A stretch of 64,000 nt of DNA from Pseudomonadota bacterium. Lineage in GTDB: Bacteria; Pseudomonadota; Gammaproteobacteria; Steroidobacterales; Steroidobacteraceae. Under the pieces are notes generated by a model, which had not been told where the DNA came from, did no database searches, and worked only from the letters and a program-made list of their open reading frames with translations. The DNA is taken from the NCBI GenBank assembly GCA_021851405.1, contig JAJZDW010000008.1, positions 1-64,000 on the forward strand, given 5' to 3'. Shown in pieces: positions 13,206 to 21,484 of this stretch. Both the position numbers and the translations under genes were made by a program. Position 1 is the first letter of the stretch. Each line of letters starts with the position of its first letter.

Positions 13206-13245
13206 CTTGCCACCGGCGGCGGCGGGTGCCGCCGCCGGTGGCAAG
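13206..13245. terminator. Long GC-rich hairpin between the barrel gene and the arn operon
   Basis: An 18-bp perfect stem (arms 13206-13223 and 13228-13245) with a 4-nt loop (GGGT) starts 17 bp after the barrel gene's stop codon. No U-tract follows directly; T-rich DNA appears only at 13278-13292. It is probably a terminator or an mRNA 3' end stabiliser. Confidence 0.6.
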
Positions 13246-13327: not shown

Positions 13328-14386
13328 ATGGCACTTAAGATCATGATTCTCGGCGCGAATGGGTTCATTGGCAGCGCGCTCACCGGGGCGATCCTGCGCG
13401 AGCGCGATTGGGAGGTCTACGGAATCGATCTCTCGGACAACAAGCTCGGGGATCTGCCGAAGGACAATCGCTTCCACTTCGTCGAGGGTGACATCACCAT
13501 CAACAAGGAGTGGGTCGAGTATCACGTCAAGAAGTGCGATGTGGTGGTGCCGCTGGTCGCCATTGCCAATCCGGCCCAGTACGTGACCCATCCGCTGAAG
13601 GTGTTCGAGCTCGATTTCGAGGCGAACGTCGAGATCGTGCGCCACTGCGTCAAGTACGGCAAGCGGCTGATTTTCCCCTCGACCTCAGAGCTCTACGGCA
13701 TGTCCCCCGATCCGCTGCTCGACGAGGAGAGCAGTCCGCTCGTGTACGGACCGATCAACAAGCAGCGCTGGATCTATGCGGCCTCGAAGCAGCTGCTCGA
13801 CCGGGTGATCTACGCCTACGGCGTGCGCGACAGCCTCGACTACACGCTGTTCCGGCCGTTCAACTTCATCGGTCCGAACCTCGACAACATCGAGGAGCCG
13901 AAGGAGGGCAGCTCGCGGGTGTTCACGCAGTTCCTCTCCAACGTGCTGTACCGACGGCCGATCAAACTGGTCGACGGCGGCAATCAGAAGCGCTCGTTCA
14001 CCTACATCGATGATGCCATCGAGTGCCTGCTCACCATCCTCGAGAACACCGACGGGCGCGCCACGCGTCGGATCTTCAATATCGGCAATCCCGACAACTG
14101 CGTTTCGATCCGCGATCTCGCCGAGCGCACCATCCGCATCGCCCAGGAGTTCCCCGATCTGCGCGATGCCGCCAAGGGCACGGAGATCATCGAGGTGTCG
14201 GCCGGGGAGTACTACGGCAAGTACTATCAGGACATCCAGGTGCGGGTGCCGGCGATCGAGGCGGCCAAGCGAGATCTCGGCTGGCGCCCGCGCACCGACA
14301 TGGACACTGCGATCCGCCGCACGATCGATTTCTACGTCAAGCTCGGCAGCTTCAACGCGTTGAACGCCTCGGCGTCGGGGCTGTGA
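13328..14386 (+). CDS. arnA: UDP-glucuronate decarboxylase (stand-alone ArnA dehydrogenase domain)
   Basis: A 352 aa extended short-chain dehydrogenase equivalent to the C-terminal half of E. coli ArnA, which oxidises and decarboxylates UDP-glucuronic acid to UDP-4-keto-pentose. It has the NAD motif GANGFIGSA at 9-17, STSELYG with the Ser and Glu needed for decarboxylation, YAASKQLLDR with the Tyr-x3-Lys pair, and the conserved Arg in DIQVRVPAIE. The start is ATG 13328, preceded by AAGGG. It is first in an operon with arnT, an arnE/F-like gene, arnB, arnC, the formyltransferase and arnD. In enterics both activities sit on one protein; here the formyltransferase is four genes downstream. A -10-like TAAAAT lies at 13273-13278. 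Confidence 0.93.
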   Translation: MALKIMILGANGFIGSALTGAILRERDWEVYGIDLSDNKLGDLPKDNRFHFVEGDITINKEWVEYHVKKCDVVVPLVAIANPAQYVTHPLKVFELDFEANVEIVRHCVKYGKRLIFPSTSELYGMSPDPLLDEESSPLVYGPINKQRWIYAASKQLLDRVIYAYGVRDSLDYTLFRPFNFIGPNLDNIEEPKEGSSRVFTQFLSNVLYRRPIKLVDGGNQKRSFTYIDDAIECLLTILENTDGRATRRIFNIGNPDNCVSIRDLAERTIRIAQEFPDLRDAAKGTEIIEVSAGEYYGKYYQDIQVRVPAIEAAKRDLGWRPRTDMDTAIRRTIDFYVKLGSFNALNASASGL

Positions 14387-14419
14387 GCGGTTGGCGGCGG
14401 TGACGGGGGGAGTGCGTCT

Positions 14420-16081
14420 ATGAGTGCGGCGCAAGCGCGGACGCAGCGGTTGCGGTGGTGGGCCTGGGTGCTGATGGCGGCCGTCTGGTTCGTCACGGTG
14501 CAGGTGCGCCCGATGTTCGACCCGGACGAGGGCCGCTACGCGGAGATCCCGCGTGAGATGGTGGCCAGTGGCAACTGGGTAACGCCGCGCCTCGATGGGC
14601 TGAAGTACTTCGAGAAGCCGGTGCTGCAGTACTGGGCGACCGCCACCGTGTACTCGGTGTTCGGGCTGAGCAACTGGTCCTCGCGCCTGTGGACCGTCGG
14701 GCTCGGCTTCGGCTGCCTGGCGCTGATCTATGCGTGGCTCGCACGCCTCTACGACCGACGCGCGGCCATCTTCGCGGTCGCGCTGCTCGCGATGAGTCCG
14801 TATTTCGGCATCATTGGTCATCTCGACCTGCTCGATGCGGGACTGACCTTCTGGCTCACCGCAATGGTGCTCGCCTTCACCCGCGCGCAATGCTCGCCGG
14901 AGGGCTCGGGCGCGGAGCGCAACTGGATGCTGCTGTCCTGGGCGATGGCGGCACTTGCGCTGCTCACCAAGGGGCTGGAGGTGTACGTGCTCGCGGGGCT
15001 CGCACTCGTCAGCTACACCGCGATCGAGCGCGACGCACGTCCCTGGCGGCGGCTGCATCTGCTGACCGGGATCCCGCTGATGGTGCTCATCGCCGCGCCG
15101 TGGTTCGTCGCCGTCTCCCTGCGCAATCACGTGTTCGCCGAGTACTTCTTCATCCACGAGCACTTCCAGCGCTTTCTCACCGATGAGGCGCGGCGAGTCG
15201 AGCCGTGGTGGTACTTCATCGCGCTGTTGGTGATCGGGGCGTTCGCGTGGCTCGCCCCGCTCGCGCGCGCCGCGCGCGCGGCCTGGCACGAGCCCGGTCC
15301 GGTGGCGCACTTCAAACCACTGAAGTTCCTGCTGCTGTATTCGCTCCTGACGGTGATCTTCTTCTCCCTCTCGGACTCGAAGCTCGCCACCTACATCCTG
15401 CCGGTGTTCCCGCCGCTCGCGGCGCTCACCGGGGTGTACCTGACGCGCCGCCCGCGCGTGCTCGAGCGCTCGGTGTGGGCCGCGGCGGGGCTCGCGGTGT
15501 TCCTGGCCGCCGGACTGCTCGTGTACTCGCATCACCGCGACGGGTTCATCCCGCCGCATGCCATCGGCTGGGGCGCCGCGGCGCTCGCCGCCGTGCTGGC
15601 GGCGGTGGCGGCCTGCGCGTTTGGCGGACGCACTGCGCCGAATGCCGATGAGGCTGGGGCGGGCGGTATCGCCACCCCGCTCATCGTCACGCTCGCCTTC
15701 ATCTTCGCCTGGCAGGCGCTGCTCTGTCAGTACGCGGTCATCCCGCCGTCGCGCTCGGCCTATCAGCTGGTGCAGCAGATCAAGTCCGAGGTGCATCCGG
15801 ACACGAAGCTCTACAGCGTCAACCAGTACCGCCAGACCATTCCGCCGTACCTCGGCCGGCTGCTGACGCTGGTGAATTACTCCGGGGAGCTCGGACCGGG
15901 AGAGCGCTGGCAGCCGGGACTGCTGACCGCCACACCGGCGCAGTTCGTGCAGCAGTGGGATGCCAGCCGCAACGCCGTGGCGTTCTTCCCGCCGGCCGTG
16001 TGGCGGCGCTATCACGCCCAGGGTCTGCCGGGTCGGGTGATTGGCGAGGACAGTTTCACCGTGGCGGTGGCCCGCCAATGA
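14420..16081 (+). CDS. arnT: 4-amino-4-deoxy-L-arabinose lipid A transferase-type glycosyltransferase (GT83)
   Basis: A 553 aa integral membrane glycosyltransferase of the ArnT/PMT (GT83) superfamily. It would transfer aminoarabinose from undecaprenyl phosphate to lipid A phosphates on the periplasmic face, lowering surface charge. The first periplasmic loop carries the signature DPDEGRYAEIPREM, then FEKPVLQYW, and about 12 hydrophobic segments follow to a soluble C-terminal domain. Position within a full arn set supports the ArnT role, though family members can attach other sugars such as galactosamine. The start is ATG 14420, 33 bp after the dehydrogenase gene; its stop overlaps the next start (ATGA). 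Confidence 0.9.
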   Translation: MSAAQARTQRLRWWAWVLMAAVWFVTVQVRPMFDPDEGRYAEIPREMVASGNWVTPRLDGLKYFEKPVLQYWATATVYSVFGLSNWSSRLWTVGLGFGCLALIYAWLARLYDRRAAIFAVALLAMSPYFGIIGHLDLLDAGLTFWLTAMVLAFTRAQCSPEGSGAERNWMLLSWAMAALALLTKGLEVYVLAGLALVSYTAIERDARPWRRLHLLTGIPLMVLIAAPWFVAVSLRNHVFAEYFFIHEHFQRFLTDEARRVEPWWYFIALLVIGAFAWLAPLARAARAAWHEPGPVAHFKPLKFLLLYSLLTVIFFSLSDSKLATYILPVFPPLAALTGVYLTRRPRVLERSVWAAAGLAVFLAAGLLVYSHHRDGFIPPHAIGWGAAALAAVLAAVAACAFGGRTAPNADEAGAGGIATPLIVTLAFIFAWQALLCQYAVIPPSRSAYQLVQQIKSEVHPDTKLYSVNQYRQTIPPYLGRLLTLVNYSGELGPGERWQPGLLTATPAQFVQQWDASRNAVAFFPPAVWRRYHAQGLPGRVIGEDSFTVAVARQ

Positions 16082-16449
16082 AATGGTCGGTGTATGGATT
16101 TCTGCTCGCCGGGATTTTGCTGAATCTCGCCGCGCAGCTCGGTCTGAAGGCCGCCACCGATGCGACCGGACCGCTGTTCGGCGGCGGCGTGGACGTGCCG
16201 AAGCGCATGCTGCAGCTGCTGACGGTTCCGTGGCTGTGGCTCGCGCTCGCCTGCTACGGCATCTCGGTGATCGCCTGGGTGGTGGGCCTCTCGCGCATCC
16301 CGGTGAGCCAGGCCTACCCGATGCTCTCGCTGAACTACGTGCTGATGGTGCCGCTCGCCTGGTGGCTGCTCGGGGAAGCGCCGAATGCCGAGCGCCTGGG
16401 CGGTATCGTCGTGATCATTTTCGGTGTGTTCCTGGTGGCTCGCTCATAA
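16078..16449 (+). CDS. EmrE-like flippase subunit (ArnE/ArnF-type)
   Basis: A 123 aa four-helix membrane protein of the drug/metabolite transporter group. In E. coli, ArnE and ArnF are two such proteins thought together to flip undecaprenyl-phosphate-aminoarabinose to the periplasm. Only one copy is present here. Helices lie near residues 4-22, 48-68, 75-95 and 100-120; the motif SRIPVSQAYPMLSLNYVL is characteristic. The ATG overlaps the arnT stop (ATGA), so the two are translationally coupled. A homodimer, or a partner elsewhere, would be required. I leave the symbol empty because ArnE and ArnF cannot be told apart with confidence. Confidence 0.85.
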   Translation: MKWSVYGFLLAGILLNLAAQLGLKAATDATGPLFGGGVDVPKRMLQLLTVPWLWLALACYGISVIAWVVGLSRIPVSQAYPMLSLNYVLMVPLAWWLLGEAPNAERLGGIVVIIFGVFLVARS

Positions 16450-16453
16450 CTCT

Positions 16454-17581
16454 ATGAACTCATTCCTGCCGTTCACCCGCCCCAGCATCGATGAGCAGAC
16501 GATCGCCGAGGTCGCCGACGTGCTGCGTTCCGGCTGGCTCGCCAGCGGCCCGAAGGTCAAGGCCTTCGAGGCGGCGCTCTCGCAGTACTGCGGCGGCCGT
16601 CCGGTGCGCAGCCAGACCTCGGCGACGGCCAGTCTCGAACATGCGCTGCTCGTGTGCGGCGTCGGCGCCGGCGATGAGGTGATCGTGCCGGCCATGAGCT
16701 TCGTCGCCAGCGCCAACGTGGTGGTGCGCACCGGAGCGCGGCCGGTGTTCGTCGATGTCGATCTGCACACCCGCAACATTGATCTGGCGCAGGCCGAGGC
16801 GGCGGTGAGCGCGCGCACCCGCGCCATCATGCCGGTGCACCTGTGCGGTCTGCCGGTCGATCTGGAGCGCATCTACGCGCTCGCCGAACGGCACCGGTTG
16901 CGGGTGATCGAGGATGCGGCCCAGGCGATGGGCTCGAGTTATCGCGGCCAGCGCATCGGCAGCTTCGGTGACCTGGTGTGCTTCAGCTTCCATCCGAACA
17001 AGAACATCACCAGCATCGAGGGCGGCGCGGTGGTCGGCGGCTCCCCGGAGGAGGTGCACGAGCTCGAGCTGCAGCGCTTCCACGGTCAGGAGAAAACCGC
17101 CGCCGATGCGTTCGAGACATTCTTCGCCGGCGGCAAGGCCAATCTGTCCGACGTGGCCGCCTGCGTCGGCCTCGGCCAGCTGCGCCAGCTCGAGGCGTTC
17201 AATGCGCGCCGGCGCGAACTCGCGGCGCGCTACTTCGAACTGTGGGGTGAGGCGGCGCCGCTGGCGCTGCCGGCCCGGGGCGATGCCGGACACAACTGGC
17301 ACATGTTCGCCGCCCGGCTGCCGCTCGGGGAGATGCGCATCAGCCGGCTCGAGTTCATCGAGGCGATGGCCGCGCGCGGCATCGGCATCGGGGTGCATTA
17401 TCCGGCCATGCACCTCTTCAGCGCCTATCGCGCACTCGGGTACCGCGAGGGGCAGTTCCCCAACGCCGAGCGCATCGGCCGTGAGACGGTGACCCTGCCG
17501 CTGTTCCCGGCGATGAGCTTCGCGGACGTCGAGCGCGTCGTGGCCGCGGTGAACGAGGTGCTGCGCGGAGTGATCCGATGA
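16454..17581 (+). CDS. arnB: UDP-4-amino-4-deoxy-L-arabinose aminotransferase
   Basis: A 375 aa PLP-dependent aminotransferase of the DegT/DnrJ/EryC1/StrS family, which converts the UDP-4-keto-pentose to UDP-aminoarabinose using glutamate. The N-terminus FLPFTRPSIDEQTI is typical of ArnB. The PLP Lys lies in FHPNKNIT, and EDAAQAMGSSY carries the cofactor-contacting Asp. The start is ATG 16454, 4 bp after the flippase stop; an upstream in-frame ATG at 16424 would lie inside that gene. It overlaps arnC by ATGA. Confidence 0.94.
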   Translation: MNSFLPFTRPSIDEQTIAEVADVLRSGWLASGPKVKAFEAALSQYCGGRPVRSQTSATASLEHALLVCGVGAGDEVIVPAMSFVASANVVVRTGARPVFVDVDLHTRNIDLAQAEAAVSARTRAIMPVHLCGLPVDLERIYALAERHRLRVIEDAAQAMGSSYRGQRIGSFGDLVCFSFHPNKNITSIEGGAVVGGSPEEVHELELQRFHGQEKTAADAFETFFAGGKANLSDVAACVGLGQLRQLEAFNARRRELAARYFELWGEAAPLALPARGDAGHNWHMFAARLPLGEMRISRLEFIEAMAARGIGIGVHYPAMHLFSAYRALGYREGQFPNAERIGRETVTLPLFPAMSFADVERVVAAVNEVLRGVIR

Positions 17582-18630
17582 GCGCAACGCTCTCGATCGT
17601 CATTCCCGTCTACAACGAGGAGGCGGGGCTCGCGGAGCTGTTCGAGCGGCTGTATCCGGCGCTCGATGCGCTCTCGCGCCAGTACGAAGTGATTTTCGTC
17701 GATGACGGCAGCCGTGACCGCTCCGCGGCGGTGCTGCGCGAGCAGTTCACCCGCCGCCCGGATCACACTCGCGTGGTTCTCCTGACGCGCAACGCCGGCC
17801 AGCACATGGCGATTCTGGCCGGCTTCGCGCACGCGCGCGGGGACTACATCATCACCCTCGATGCGGACTTGCAGAACCCGCCGGAGGAGGTCGCCAAGGT
17901 GGTCGCGGCCATGGACCAGGGCGCGGACTACGTCGGCACGGTGCGTGCCCGGCGCCACGATGTCTACTGGCGCAAGATGGCCTCGCGGCTGATGAACCGG
18001 ATCCGCGAGCGCACCACGCAGATCCGCATCACCGATCAGGGCTGCATGCTGCGCGGCTATCATCGCTCGATCGTCGAGGCCATCAATCGCTGCGTCGAGG
18101 TGAGCACGTTCGTGCCCGCCCTCGGTTACACCTTCGCCCGTCATCCCACCGAGGTGGAAGTGGCACATGCCGAGCGTGCCGCCGGCCAGTCGAAATATTC
18201 GCTCTACCGGCTGATCCGCCTGAACTTCGATCTGATGACCGGCTTCTCGGTCGCGCCGCTGCAGTTCTTCACGATGTTCGGCATTCTGATTGCGCTGATC
18301 TCACTCGGCTTCGTGGTCGTGCTGGCGATCCGCCGTCTGTTCATCGGTCCGGAAGTGCAGGGCGTGTTCACGTTGTTCGGCCTCGCGTTCTTCTTCATCG
18401 GCGTGCTGCTGGTGAGCGTCGGGATGGTCGGGGAGTACGTCGGGCGCATTTACGAGCAGGTGCGCCAGCGTCCGCGCTACACCGTCACGGCCATCCTCGA
18501 GCAGGGTGCGGGACTGGAGCGCGGCGAGCGCCCGGCGCGCCCGGCGCTGGTGCTGCCGCCGGCCGTGCAGGCCGAGATCGATCACAGCGAGATGCTGCGC
18601 GCCGAGCACGAACCCGGTGAGCGCCGGTGA
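17578..18630 (+). CDS. arnC: Undecaprenyl-phosphate 4-deoxy-4-formamido-L-arabinose transferase
   Basis: A 350 aa family 2 glycosyltransferase that moves formylated aminoarabinose from UDP to undecaprenyl phosphate on the cytoplasmic face. It starts with the GT-A core (SIVIPVYNEEAG), has the metal and nucleotide motifs VDDGSRD and LDADLQNPPEE, and ends with two transmembrane helices near residues 228-252 and 262-286, followed by a charged tail somewhat longer than in E. coli. Overlaps by 4 bp at both ends couple it to arnB and the formyltransferase gene. Other DPM1-like transferases share the layout, but the neighbours settle the role. Confidence 0.93.
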   Translation: MSATLSIVIPVYNEEAGLAELFERLYPALDALSRQYEVIFVDDGSRDRSAAVLREQFTRRPDHTRVVLLTRNAGQHMAILAGFAHARGDYIITLDADLQNPPEEVAKVVAAMDQGADYVGTVRARRHDVYWRKMASRLMNRIRERTTQIRITDQGCMLRGYHRSIVEAINRCVEVSTFVPALGYTFARHPTEVEVAHAERAAGQSKYSLYRLIRLNFDLMTGFSVAPLQFFTMFGILIALISLGFVVVLAIRRLFIGPEVQGVFTLFGLAFFFIGVLLVSVGMVGEYVGRIYEQVRQRPRYTVTAILEQGAGLERGERPARPALVLPPAVQAEIDHSEMLRAEHEPGERR

Positions 18631-19556
18631 GCCGGCGCGCCCGCGCGGTCGTCTTCGCCTACCACGATGTCGGTGTCCGCTGCTTGAAGGCGCTGCTCTC
18701 GGGCGGTGTCGAGGTGGTGCAGGTGGTCACGGTGGCGGACGACCCGACGGAGACGCAGTGGTTCGCGAGCGTCGCGCAGACGGCGCACGATTACGGGCTG
18801 GCGGTGGAGAGGCCCGAAGATCCCAACGACGCGGCGTTCGTCGAGCGGATCGCGGCCCTCGATGCGGATTTTCTCTTCTCGTTCTACTACCGCTCCATGC
18901 TCGGCGCGCCGCTGCTGAAGTGTGCGCGGCGCGGGGCTCTCAACATGCACGGCTCGCTGCTGCCGAACTATCGTGGCCGCGCGCCGGTGAACTGGGCGAT
19001 CCTCAATGGCGAGCGCGAGATCGGCGCGACGCTGCACTACATGGTGGACCGTGCCGATGCCGGGGACATCGTCGATCAGCAGGCGGTGCCGATTCTCGCC
19101 GACGATGAGGCGCGCGAGGTGTATGCCAAGGTCACGACCGCCGCCGAAATGGTGCTGGTGCGCTCGCTGCCGGGCCTGATCGAGGGCCGTGCGCCGCGGC
19201 GCGTGCAGCCGATCGTGCCCGGGCAGTATTTCGGGCGGCGCCGTCCGGAGGACGGGCGCATCAACTGGCGCTGGCCGGCCGAGCGCATCCATAACCTGGT
19301 GCGGGCCCTCGCCCCGCCGTTCCCCGGCGCGTTCGGGGAGGTGGGCGCCGAGCGTTGGTGGCTGCATCGCACGCGCCTCGCGCCGCAGACGCTGACCCCG
19401 GGGGAGCCGCGGTTGATCGGTGCGCACGGCGAGTGCCAGTTGATCTGCGCCGACGGCTCGGTGCTACGGATTCTGCAGGCGGCCGGCGCGTCCGGGGCGC
19501 TCGATCTGCCGCGCCTGGCGCACGATTTCGAGCGCCGTCCGGTGACGCTGGGCTGA
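18627..19556 (+). CDS. arnA: UDP-4-amino-4-deoxy-L-arabinose formyltransferase (stand-alone ArnA formyltransferase domain)
   Basis: A 309 aa 10-formyl-tetrahydrofolate-dependent formyltransferase equivalent to the N-terminal half of E. coli ArnA; it formylates the amino sugar before transfer to the lipid carrier. The catalytic Asn and His are in NMHGSLLPNYRGRAP and the Asp in DRADAGDIVDQ. The N-terminus VVFAYHDVGVRCLKALL also matches ArnA. The start is GTG in a GTGA overlap with arnC. A methionyl-tRNA formyltransferase is excluded by the ArnA-like N-terminus and the context. The separate dehydrogenase half is at 13328. Confidence 0.93.
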   Translation: MSRRARAVVFAYHDVGVRCLKALLSGGVEVVQVVTVADDPTETQWFASVAQTAHDYGLAVERPEDPNDAAFVERIAALDADFLFSFYYRSMLGAPLLKCARRGALNMHGSLLPNYRGRAPVNWAILNGEREIGATLHYMVDRADAGDIVDQQAVPILADDEAREVYAKVTTAAEMVLVRSLPGLIEGRAPRRVQPIVPGQYFGRRRPEDGRINWRWPAERIHNLVRALAPPFPGAFGEVGAERWWLHRTRLAPQTLTPGEPRLIGAHGECQLICADGSVLRILQAAGASGALDLPRLAHDFERRPVTLG

Positions 19557-19586
19557 GCGGGCAGTGCCGTCCGCTGCGGGGGTGCC

Positions 19587-20489
19587 GTGACCACGATCGC
19601 GCTGAAAATCGACGTCGACACCTATCGCGGAACGCTCGAGGGCGTGCCGCGGCTCGCCGCTGCGCTCGAGCGCAGCGGGGCGCGGGCGACGTTTCTCTTT
19701 TCGCTCGGCCCCGATCACACCGGCCGGGCCCTGAAGCGGGTGTTTCGCCGCGGCTTTCTCGGCAAGGTGCGCCGCACCTCGGTCGTCAGCCATTATGGCG
19801 TGCGCACGCTGCTCTACGGCGTGCTCCTGCCGGGCCCGCGCATCGGCCGGCGCTGCGAGGGCGAGTTGCAGGCGATCGAAGCCCGCGGCTTCGAGGTCGG
19901 TGTGCACACCTGGGATCACGTCAAGTGGCAGGACGGGGTGGCGCGCGCCGAGCGGCAATGGACCCGCCGGCAGTTCGAACTGGCCTGCGAGGAGTTCGCC
20001 CGTGTGTTCGGGCACGCCCCGGCGACCCACGGCGCGGCCGGTTGGCAGATGAACGCGCACGTGCCCGCGCTGCAGGCCGAGCGCGGCATGTCGTACGCCT
20101 CCGATACCCGCGGTCGCGGTCCCTTCGTTCCGCTCATCGGGGGGCGCGAAGTGCCGGTACTGCAACTGCCGACCACGCTGCCGACGCTCGATGAGCTGAT
20201 CGGCCGTGAGGACCTCGGGGGGGCCGATCCGATCGAGCATCTGCTGCGCGTGAGCGCCGATGGCGCCGATCACGTCTTCACGCTTCATGCGGAGCTCGAG
20301 GGCGGGGCGTACCTGGAGGGTTTCGAGCGGTTGCTCGGCGCGTGGCGCGCGCGTGGGGTGGTCCTGACGGATCTGGCCACGTACGCCTCGGGTCTGGACC
20401 TGGCACGGCTGCCGCGCTGCCCGATCGACTCCGCCCGCGTGCCGGGACGCGCCGGCACGCTGGCGGTGCAGGGGGAGGTGCGGACATGA
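19587..20489 (+). CDS. arnD: 4-deoxy-4-formamido-L-arabinose-phosphoundecaprenol deformylase
   Basis: A 300 aa NodB-type polysaccharide deacetylase. It removes the formyl group from the lipid-linked sugar, making the pathway irreversible before the flip. The metal site starts with LKIDVDTYRGT (Asp pair) and continues in GVHTWDHVKWQDG (His pair); AATHGAAGWQMN follows. The start is GTG 19587, 30 bp after the formyltransferase gene, with a GGGGG stretch upstream. Its stop overlaps the start of a quinone oxidoreductase gene (ATGA). The overall fit to ArnD is good. Confidence 0.93.
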   Translation: MTTIALKIDVDTYRGTLEGVPRLAAALERSGARATFLFSLGPDHTGRALKRVFRRGFLGKVRRTSVVSHYGVRTLLYGVLLPGPRIGRRCEGELQAIEARGFEVGVHTWDHVKWQDGVARAERQWTRRQFELACEEFARVFGHAPATHGAAGWQMNAHVPALQAERGMSYASDTRGRGPFVPLIGGREVPVLQLPTTLPTLDELIGREDLGGADPIEHLLRVSADGADHVFTLHAELEGGAYLEGFERLLGAWRARGVVLTDLATYASGLDLARLPRCPIDSARVPGRAGTLAVQGEVRT

Positions 20490-21484
20490 CCGTGTTGCCC
20501 GAGAGCATGCAGGTGATCGAGATCACCGCACCCGGGGGACCGCAGGTGCTGCAGCCGGCGCGGCGTCCGCTGCCGACCCCCGGTCCGAACGAGGTGTTGA
20601 TCCGGGTGCGCGCCGCGGGCGTCAATCGACCGGATGTGCTGCAGCGGCGCGGTGCGTATCCGCCGCCGCCCGGGGCGAGCGACATCCCGGGGCTCGAGAT
20701 CGCCGGGGAAGTGGTCGCACTCGGGGCCGAGGTGCACCCGTGGCAGCGCGGCGATGCCGTCTGCGCGCTGCTGGCCGGGGGCGGGTATGCCGAGTACGCG
20801 CTCGCCCCGGCCGTGCAATGCCTGCCGGTGCCCCAGGGGTTCAGCCTCGAGCAGGCTGCGGTCCTGCCCGAGACGGTCTTTACCGTGTATTACAACGTCT
20901 GGGAGCGCTCGCATCTGCGCCCCGGGGAGTGGCTGCTGGTACATGGCGGCACGAGCGGCATCGGCACGACGGCGATCCTGCTGGCCAAGGCATTCGGGGC
21001 GCACGTCATTGCGACCGCCGGCAGTGCGCAGAAATGCGCCGCCTGTGTACGCCTCGGCGCCGATGTCGCAATCGATTACAAGAACGCGGACTTCGTCACC
21101 GGTGCGCTCGAGGCGACGCAGGGGCGCGGCGTGGATGTCATTCTCGACATGGTGGGCGGGACGTACGTGGCGCGCGACATCGCCGCGGCGGCGCCGGAAG
21201 GGCGCATCGCCGTCATCGCGACGCAGGGCGGGCGACTGGCGGAAATTGATCTGGGCGCGCTCATGGGCAAACGGCTCACGATCGGAGGTTCGACGCTGCG
21301 GCCGCAGACGGTCGCGCGCAAGGGTGAACTCGCCGCGGCGCTGCGCCGGGAGATCTGGCCGCTACTCGAGGCCGGTGCACTGCGCCTGCCGATCCATGCC
21401 CGATTCCCTCTGACCCAAGCCGCGCAGGCGCATGCGCTGATGGAATCCGGCGAGCACGTCGGCAAGATCGTCCTTGAGCCCTAG
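20486..21484 (+). CDS. NAD(P)H quinone oxidoreductase, PIG3-like MDR family
   Basis: A 332 aa zinc-free medium-chain dehydrogenase of the PIG3 (TP53I3)-like quinone oxidoreductase group. AGVNRPDVLQRRG and the nucleotide fold LVHGGTSGIGTTAI are characteristic. ATG 20486 overlaps the arnD stop as ATGA with GGGGGAGG just upstream, so it is translationally coupled to the arn operon; ATG 20507 is a less coupled alternative. No role in aminoarabinose synthesis is known for this family, so the pairing may be only transcriptional. It converges with the Lrp gene, and the two stop codons overlap by 4 bp. Confidence 0.85.
   Translation: MTVLPESMQVIEITAPGGPQVLQPARRPLPTPGPNEVLIRVRAAGVNRPDVLQRRGAYPPPPGASDIPGLEIAGEVVALGAEVHPWQRGDAVCALLAGGGYAEYALAPAVQCLPVPQGFSLEQAAVLPETVFTVYYNVWERSHLRPGEWLLVHGGTSGIGTTAILLAKAFGAHVIATAGSAQKCAACVRLGADVAIDYKNADFVTGALEATQGRGVDVILDMVGGTYVARDIAAAAPEGRIAVIATQGGRLAEIDLGALMGKRLTIGGSTLRPQTVARKGELAAALRREIWPLLEAGALRLPIHARFPLTQAAQAHALMESGEHVGKIVLEP

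Follow-up and report, generated by a model that had tools for sequence, protein, structure and literature searches.

A Steroidobacteraceae arn cluster with separate ArnA halves and, at an unusual place, a dehydrogenase gene that is probably a foreign replacement

In Burkholderia cenocepacia, separate arnA1 and arnA2 genes, both of them required for aminoarabinose (Ara4N), are already in print (PMC3123600; PMC4993015), and a 2025 paper regards the separation of the two halves of ArnA as ancestral and sees in their fusion a derived trait that belongs to Gammaproteobacteria (PMC12650200). The survey in the latter tallied any dehydrogenase (DH) and formyltransferase (FT) homologues at E below 1e-5, and not arn clusters; these papers, like the others given below by PMC number, are cited from excerpts of their text. 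Here we describe the arn cluster at 13328-20489 in 64,000 nucleotides of DNA from a Pseudomonadota bacterium of the family Steroidobacteraceae (contig JAJZDW010000008.1 of assembly GCA_021851405.1; the whole stretch is called the window). Its DH gene, arnA2 (A2), stands at the head of the cluster and its FT gene, arnA1 (A1), near the end. Judging from the sequences, we consider it quite likely that the cluster covers the whole pathway leading from UDP-glucuronate (UDP-GlcA) to aminoarabinose on lipid A, with separate ArnA halves, and that in it the native A2 has been replaced by a Verrucomicrobia-like DH and A1 is undocked from it. What is unusual here is the place and the origin of A2, not the split of ArnA.

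Place and origin of the dehydrogenase gene

The cluster consists of seven intact open reading frames in tandem on the + strand, in the order A2-T-E/F-B-C-A1-D. These gene identities and this order had been proposed from the letters of the DNA alone (the sequence-only reading) and are upheld; the order A2-T-E-B-C-A1-D was found in 41 of 46 stretches from the same genus, and the other five start with A2-T and end before A1. Since the A2-first order recurs in this way, it is not a product of chance or misassembly. The 46 stretches leave out four genomes (G008, G013, G022 and G030) with matches over the cut-off and no long stretch, and gene-order counts, here and below, were made by match position. 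Elsewhere in the family, A1 and A2 were adjacent in 11 of 20 long stretches, which come from 13 genus groups; A2 was first in five (L220, L223, L224, L228 and L229) and last in four (L219, L226, L230 and L231), and the genus groups g20 and g297 each hold both order types. Among the short stretches from the family, A1 and A2 were adjacent in 29 of 30 and one ended before A1. The survey of arn gene order in relatives that the sequence-only reading had called for thus gives an A2-first order in every genus stretch that reaches A1, and A2 first or last in a few sister genera. A2 matches at 1e-60 were present in 94 of 154 genomes of the family; each of the 36 listed genomes of the genus, the window's own included, had a single one, so that no second, native copy of A2 was seen.

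Other arrangements with A2 apart from A1 were also encountered. In Solimonas soli (L161, 9001-16221) the genes stand in the order of the window, with A2 first, and its A2 is of Betaproteobacteria type, apparently by an independent relocation. The orders T-A2-B-C-A1-D and A2-D-E-C-A1-T were seen in Geomonas (L133) and Parvibaculaceae (L129), respectively.

In the following, 'moved' A2 denotes the A2-first and A2-last genes of the window's genus and the few sister genera, and 'native' A2 denotes those between A1 and D in the family. Moved A2 in other genera share 66-80% identity with the A2 of the window, those of Opitutia 63-67% and native ones of the same family 55-60%. In the trees, moved A2 grouped with Verrucomicrobia A2 with a support of 98 (85 rows), 100 (81 rows) and 100/99 (a careful tree of 54 rows), and the native A2 of the family formed a separate clade together with Betaproteobacteria A2 (99 and 100/99). 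Forcing moved A2 to group with native and Betaproteobacteria A2 was 56 log units worse (approximately unbiased (AU) test, p 0.0063). The remaining genes gave another placement. The moved rows lie within the clade of the family and Betaproteobacteria in the A1 tree (83 rows, support 99), and forcing moved A1 to group with Verrucomicrobia was 126 log units worse (AU p 0.0007). In the tree of B, C and D combined (70 rows), the moved rows form one clade (99) within the clade of the family and Betaproteobacteria (100), and forcing them to group with Verrucomicrobia was 192 log units worse (AU p 4e-7). On this combined tree two changes suffice for the A2 lineage, and the position of A2 requires at least four, which indicates that relocation took place more than once. 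The 85 rows were selected from the fetched loci and include 10 of the 46 genus stretches. Rows on long branches (L129, L137, L142 and L168) were removed before the A1 and A2 AU tests and the change counts; L105 and L142 were further removed for A1 and L221, L226, L031 and L105 for C, and the combined tree keeps 70 of the 85 rows.

These trees, taken together with the gene order, suggest a probable loss of the native A2 from its place between A1 and D, and a takeover by a foreign A2 elsewhere in the operon. In the simplest history, a single transfer would have brought a Verrucomicrobia-like A2 into the ancestor of the moved clade, that is, of the window's genus and the few sister genera; the native A2 would have been lost, and the new A2 would have been placed twice, after D and before T. 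A literature search, with poor coverage of subscription journals, found no report on replacement of an arn A2 among the papers listed.

Several points weigh against this history. The A2 of three loci from other lineages (L125, L128 and L129) also show 64% identity to that of the window, and that of a Limisphaerales locus (L137) shows 61%. Identity values by themselves thus do not point to Verrucomicrobia in particular, and the placement relies on the trees. Two of these, for A1 and for B, C and D, are quick ones, and the A2-last and A2-first rows are not one clade in the A1 tree. The BLAST ranking was already known when the groups for the AU tests were chosen. Moreover, moved and Verrucomicrobia A2 are sisters, a placement that fixes neither the donor nor the direction of the A2 transfer.

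An ancient duplication of A2 followed by many losses would produce the same discordance between the A1 and A2 trees. This paralogy, in which two A2 genes were ancestral and the moved lineage retained the other one, might also find some support in the two A2 matches that some genomes carry (G473, G799 and G862), if any such pair includes both lineages. We regard it as unlikely, since it needs parallel losses across Beta- and Gammaproteobacteria where one transfer suffices, and since the A2 lineage changes only twice on the combined tree. Somewhat less probable still is a simple relocation, by which the family's own A2 left its place between A1 and D and came to stand first in the operon, without any foreign gene. 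Relocation without replacement does exist, as in the Solimonas soli cluster with its A2 in the Betaproteobacteria-type clade. On the other hand, the A2 of the window is closer to that of Opitutia than to the native A2 of its own family in the identities given above, and the separation of the two clades (100/99) and the AU test on A2 speak against a common origin of moved and native genes within the family. Replacement by a Verrucomicrobia-like A2 is thus the reading that we prefer.

Assignment of the genes and the split of ArnA

A2 (13328-14386), a predicted stand-alone UDP-glucuronate oxidative decarboxylase, scores 553.9 bits to NCBIfam PRK11908 (NF008872, cut-off 294), and A1 (18627-19556), a predicted stand-alone UDP-Ara4N formyltransferase that is native to the family by its tree, scores 379 bits to PRK06988 (NF005414, cut-off 316). 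Both scores lie above the cut-offs for stand-alone ArnA2 and ArnA1. For the bifunctional ArnA model PRK08125, which has a cut-off of 777 in one chain, 462 and 278.7 bits are spread over the two genes, and the cut-off is not reached; ArnA is indeed split relative to enterics, as the sequence-only reading had stated. A2 also matches the PDB entries 3slg, 2bll and 1z7e. Identity to ArnA of E. coli K-12 is 50.4% for the DH (347 positions) and 39.8% for the FT (299 positions). In the alignments with this protein, T119, S120, E121, Y150, K154, N179 and R306 of A2 and N106, H108 and D144 of A1 are all the same, which bears out the claim that the catalytic residues of both halves are intact. We take the compared positions (N/H/D in A1; T/S/E, Y-x3-K, N and R in A2) to be catalytic, leaving N179 aside. 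For the latter, the corresponding N492 of E. coli ArnA has been mutated and the enzyme was inactive (PMC12650200).

The other genes could be assigned with lower scores. The product of arnT (14420-16081), a putative lipid A aminoarabinosyltransferase, reaches 86.8 bits to Arnt_C, above the cut-off of 26.5, and 221 bits to NF009784 (cut-off 567). The arnE/F-like gene (16078-16449), for a putative single flippase subunit, scores 34.3 bits to EamA, 55.4 to ArnF and 50.2 to ArnE, the last two each under its NCBIfam cut-off. For arnB (16454-17581), a putative UDP-4-keto-pentose aminotransferase of the DegT family, the best NCBIfam match is ArnB (NF008658) with 318.5 bits under a cut-off of 631, nearly tied with PseC at 306.6 bits. 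The putative undecaprenyl-phosphate aminoarabinose transferase gene arnC (17578-18630) scores 359 bits to NF007986 (cut-off 529), and arnD (19587-20489), for a putative deformylase of undecaprenyl-phosphate Ara4FN (formylated Ara4N), scores 214 bits to NF011923 (cut-off 382). It weighs against our assignment that these five genes, T, B, C, D and E/F, stay under the equivalog cut-offs throughout, even though their best NCBIfam matches are Arn models. The T, E, B and C genes of an independent cluster in genome G126 are likewise under the NCBIfam cut-offs.

The near tie of ArnB with PseC might point to a different sugar pathway, for example one for UDP-xylose or a PseC-like amino sugar. We consider this very improbable, since ArnT with its Arnt_C domain, ArnC, ArnD, ArnE/F and A1 share one tight operon, and since the same gene set recurs across phyla. 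The Arn pathway set of A, B, C, D, T and E/F with a source of UDP-GlcA is all present in the source genome (3.5 Mb, 97% complete, 76 contigs), which has one NDP-sugar dehydrogenase over the cut-off of a general model, as the source of UDP-GlcA, and one LpxC. The comparisons establish what the genes are, and the chemistry is predicted from their families. In the predicted aminoarabinose route, A2 would oxidise and decarboxylate UDP-GlcA, B would transaminate, and then A1 would formylate; C would load undecaprenyl phosphate, D would deformylate, E/F would flip and T would transfer aminoarabinose onto lipid A. Adjacent genes overlap by 4 bases at T-E/F, B-C and C-A1 and are separated by 4 (E/F-B), 33 (A2-T) and 30 bases (A1-D), where the start codons of A2, E/F and arnB are internal ATGs of our choice; this tight spacing of the seven arn genes fits one transcript.

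With regard to the split, the sequence-only reading took it for an oddity, with the enteric fusion as the reference, and this was misleading. An A2 alignment led by the window had 576 confirmed relatives. Of the best 80, which are named loci and through this choice a set biased toward split genes, 59 have A1 and A2 separate and adjacent; no A1 was present in the stretch in 11, A2 was first in seven (five of them from the window's genus) and last in two, and one locus was of another type. The usual layout in the fetched split clusters is T-E-B-C-A1-A2-D, and adjacent pairs of A1 and A2 are found in Verrucomicrobiota, Acidobacteriota, Myxococcota (NCBI record names), Nitrospirota, Thermodesulfobacteriota and Pseudomonadota. 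In an evenly drawn sample of 370 genomes of the class, 45 had an A2 match at 1e-60; 30 loci from it comprised four with A1 and A2 in a single frame (L028-L031), 14 with separate adjacent genes and 12 without A1 within a short stretch. Among 397 genomes of the phylum, 56 had a match, and 28 of these carry a frame of at least 659 amino acids (51-55% identity), which is what a fused ArnA would show when judged by frame length only. A 708-amino-acid frame at 59% identity in G862 of the same sample is outside the 28. The split itself is ordinary, separate halves being common outside the clade of fused ArnA; fused ArnA is also common, in its own clade.

It is improbable that this split arose secondarily, by fission of an ArnA that was fused in the ancestor. 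Each of three trees shows a single change between the fused and the split state, at least six phyla contain separate pairs, and the 2025 paper concludes that separation is ancestral (PMC12650200). Rooting with outgroups gave contradictory results and was not used: A1 rooted with methionyl-tRNA formyltransferase (Fmt) had its root at the fused rows, as fission would have it, though on a very long outgroup branch (4.84), and A2 rooted with a UXS-like outgroup had the fused rows nested inside the split ones on an equally unreliable branch of 10. This rooting left out L142 and seven of the ten genus rows. Because of the contradiction, our own trees alone do not fix the direction of fusion or fission. 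The sequence-only reading is thus partly supported as a whole: the phylogeny of both domains that it suggested separates fused from split forms by one change but gives opposed roots, and its question of an ancestral or a secondary state is answered as ancestral by PMC12650200 for the separation, the secondary events here being the probable loss and replacement of the native A2.

Interfaces and clusters without the formyltransferase

On the question of the sequence-only reading whether the two enzymes still associate, interface residues give an indirect answer. Contact residues in the hexamer of E. coli ArnA have been named (PMC12650200). The A2 of the window keeps the residues of the DH-DH dimer and trimer at E407, E411, R418, L451, P455, R472, Y477, E366, D368, Y378 and K381 and differs from E. 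coli at R400, V453 and K480, positions that vary. Five residues of the dimer (E407, E411, R418, P455 and R472) and three of the trimer (E366, D368 and Y378) are shared by 19/19 moved and 11/11 native A2, as well as by 8/8 from Verrucomicrobia, 10/10 from Betaproteobacteria and 6/6 A2 without A1 nearby. The R472A mutation at this interface lowered activity (PMC12650200), and six chains are present in the PDB entry of 3slg, the structure of a stand-alone DH, which is a chain count and not an assembly. These few residues suggest that the split A2 probably keeps its own DH-DH oligomer.

At the contacts between DH and FT, position 521 is E or D in 5/5 fused proteins, Y, H or F in 19/19 moved A2 and R or A in 11/11 native A2. 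Position 303 of the FT, which faces 521, is R, H or Q in fused proteins (R in two of five) and L in 18/19 moved and 10/11 native A1; being L in both, it leaves the swap of the DH at 521 unmatched by a change in the FT. None of the four contact residues is kept in the window, where positions 521, 601, 298 and 303 hold Y, I, R and L, respectively, but of these positions only 521 and 298 vary little or not at all among fused proteins. These positions hint that A1 may not be docked on A2 as in E. coli. Several facts weaken the case for an undocked FT: R601 varies among the fused rows too, L298 is constant in 5/5 fused proteins and also present in 3/19 moved and 1/10 Betaproteobacteria A1, and the FT end aligns poorly. 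Furthermore, mutations of the scheme-1 DH-FT contacts had a negligible effect on activity (PMC12650200). The claim of a DH oligomer is better supported than that of an undocked A1; in the arrangement that we propose, A2 would form its own DH-DH oligomer and A1 would act beside it, undocked.

We examined ten clusters of the same class with A2 and no match to A1. Nine of them are without A1 and D in a stretch of 12.8-18 kb; three of the nine (L288, L290 and L291) read T-E-B-C-A2 and the others are without at least one of T, E, B and C. In the tenth (L295), D is present and A1 absent. Arn-like clusters lacking both A1 and D are those at 3709-9070 of L288 (genome G126) and in L287, L289, L290, L291, L293 and L296, with L142 added by its stretch alone. 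When 14 such genomes were searched whole, no ArnD was found at 1e-10 in nine; the other five have ArnD, and in G201 an A1-like gene stands beside it. FT matches in the nine genomes without ArnD were none in G126, short and partial ones of at most 77 bits in G178 and ones of 119-153 bits in seven, and the best FT match in all seven is Fmt. In G126, T, E, B, C and A2 are all open frames. These clusters support the modularity of the DH, and their gene content suggests transfer of aminoarabinose without the formyl cycle in some genomes. A literature search on a formylation-free aminoarabinose route found nothing, which is weak evidence of absence.

A wider view may be drawn from the probably different origins of the ArnA halves together with the clusters lacking FT and ArnD, and we offer it tentatively, as one to which we would not quite commit ourselves: the DH would be a free-standing enzyme, docking and channelling would belong only to the enteric-type fusion, and a formylation-free route would operate in some genomes.

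As for the surroundings of the arn cluster, a GC-rich inverted repeat at 13210-13241 (strand unspecified), read by eye in the gap that separates A2 from the outer-membrane protein gene upstream of it, is a possible boundary; it is absent from the terminator-like sites of a terminator scan, and a promoter scan found no sigma-70-like site. A gene for a PIG3-type quinone oxidoreductase (20486-21484) overlaps arnD by 4 bases and trails the arn cluster in many stretches of the same genus. ARAGORN placed a tRNA-Val(gac) at 19508-19583, over the end of A1 and the gap before arnD; this is probably spurious, and no Rfam family reached the gathering score in the window.

Significance and comparison with known systems

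The reference point for such clusters should be corrected, in that the two halves of ArnA often occur as separate genes and the fused form is the mark of one clade. The cluster may serve as a natural swap experiment on the mutual need of the ArnA activities, as its native FT seems to work together with a foreign DH. Strategies that target the ArnA hexamer or its inter-domain surfaces may apply differently in bacteria with split ArnA, and, given the clusters without A1 and D, it may be asked whether the pathway always includes formylation of UDP-Ara4N.

Among the described systems, the arn cluster of B. cenocepacia resembles that of the window in having separate arnA1 and arnA2 (PMC3123600; PMC4993015). 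There the two are neighbours (BCAL1933 and BCAL1934), whereas the A2 of the window stands at the opposite end of the cluster and comes from another lineage. RsU4kpxs of Ralstonia solanacearum is also a stand-alone DH half and bears the same NCBIfam family name as the A2 of the window (PMC5607165), but the latter belongs to the Verrucomicrobia-like clade and its activity is predicted from sequence. The arnBCADTEF operon of E. coli K-12 (L178) shares with the window the pathway, the checked catalytic residues and most of the DH-DH contact residues. Its ArnA is a fused hexameric protein; that of the window is not fused, and the window further differs in gene order, in its one E/F gene and at position 521. 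The cluster of Solimonas soli is identical in order (A2-T-E-B-C-A1-D), although its A2 is of Betaproteobacteria type. Finally, operons in which genes have been displaced by horizontal transfer of distant homologues are known as mosaic operons. The arn cluster of the window would likewise have had one gene replaced from a distant lineage, but the replacement stands at another position and not in place.

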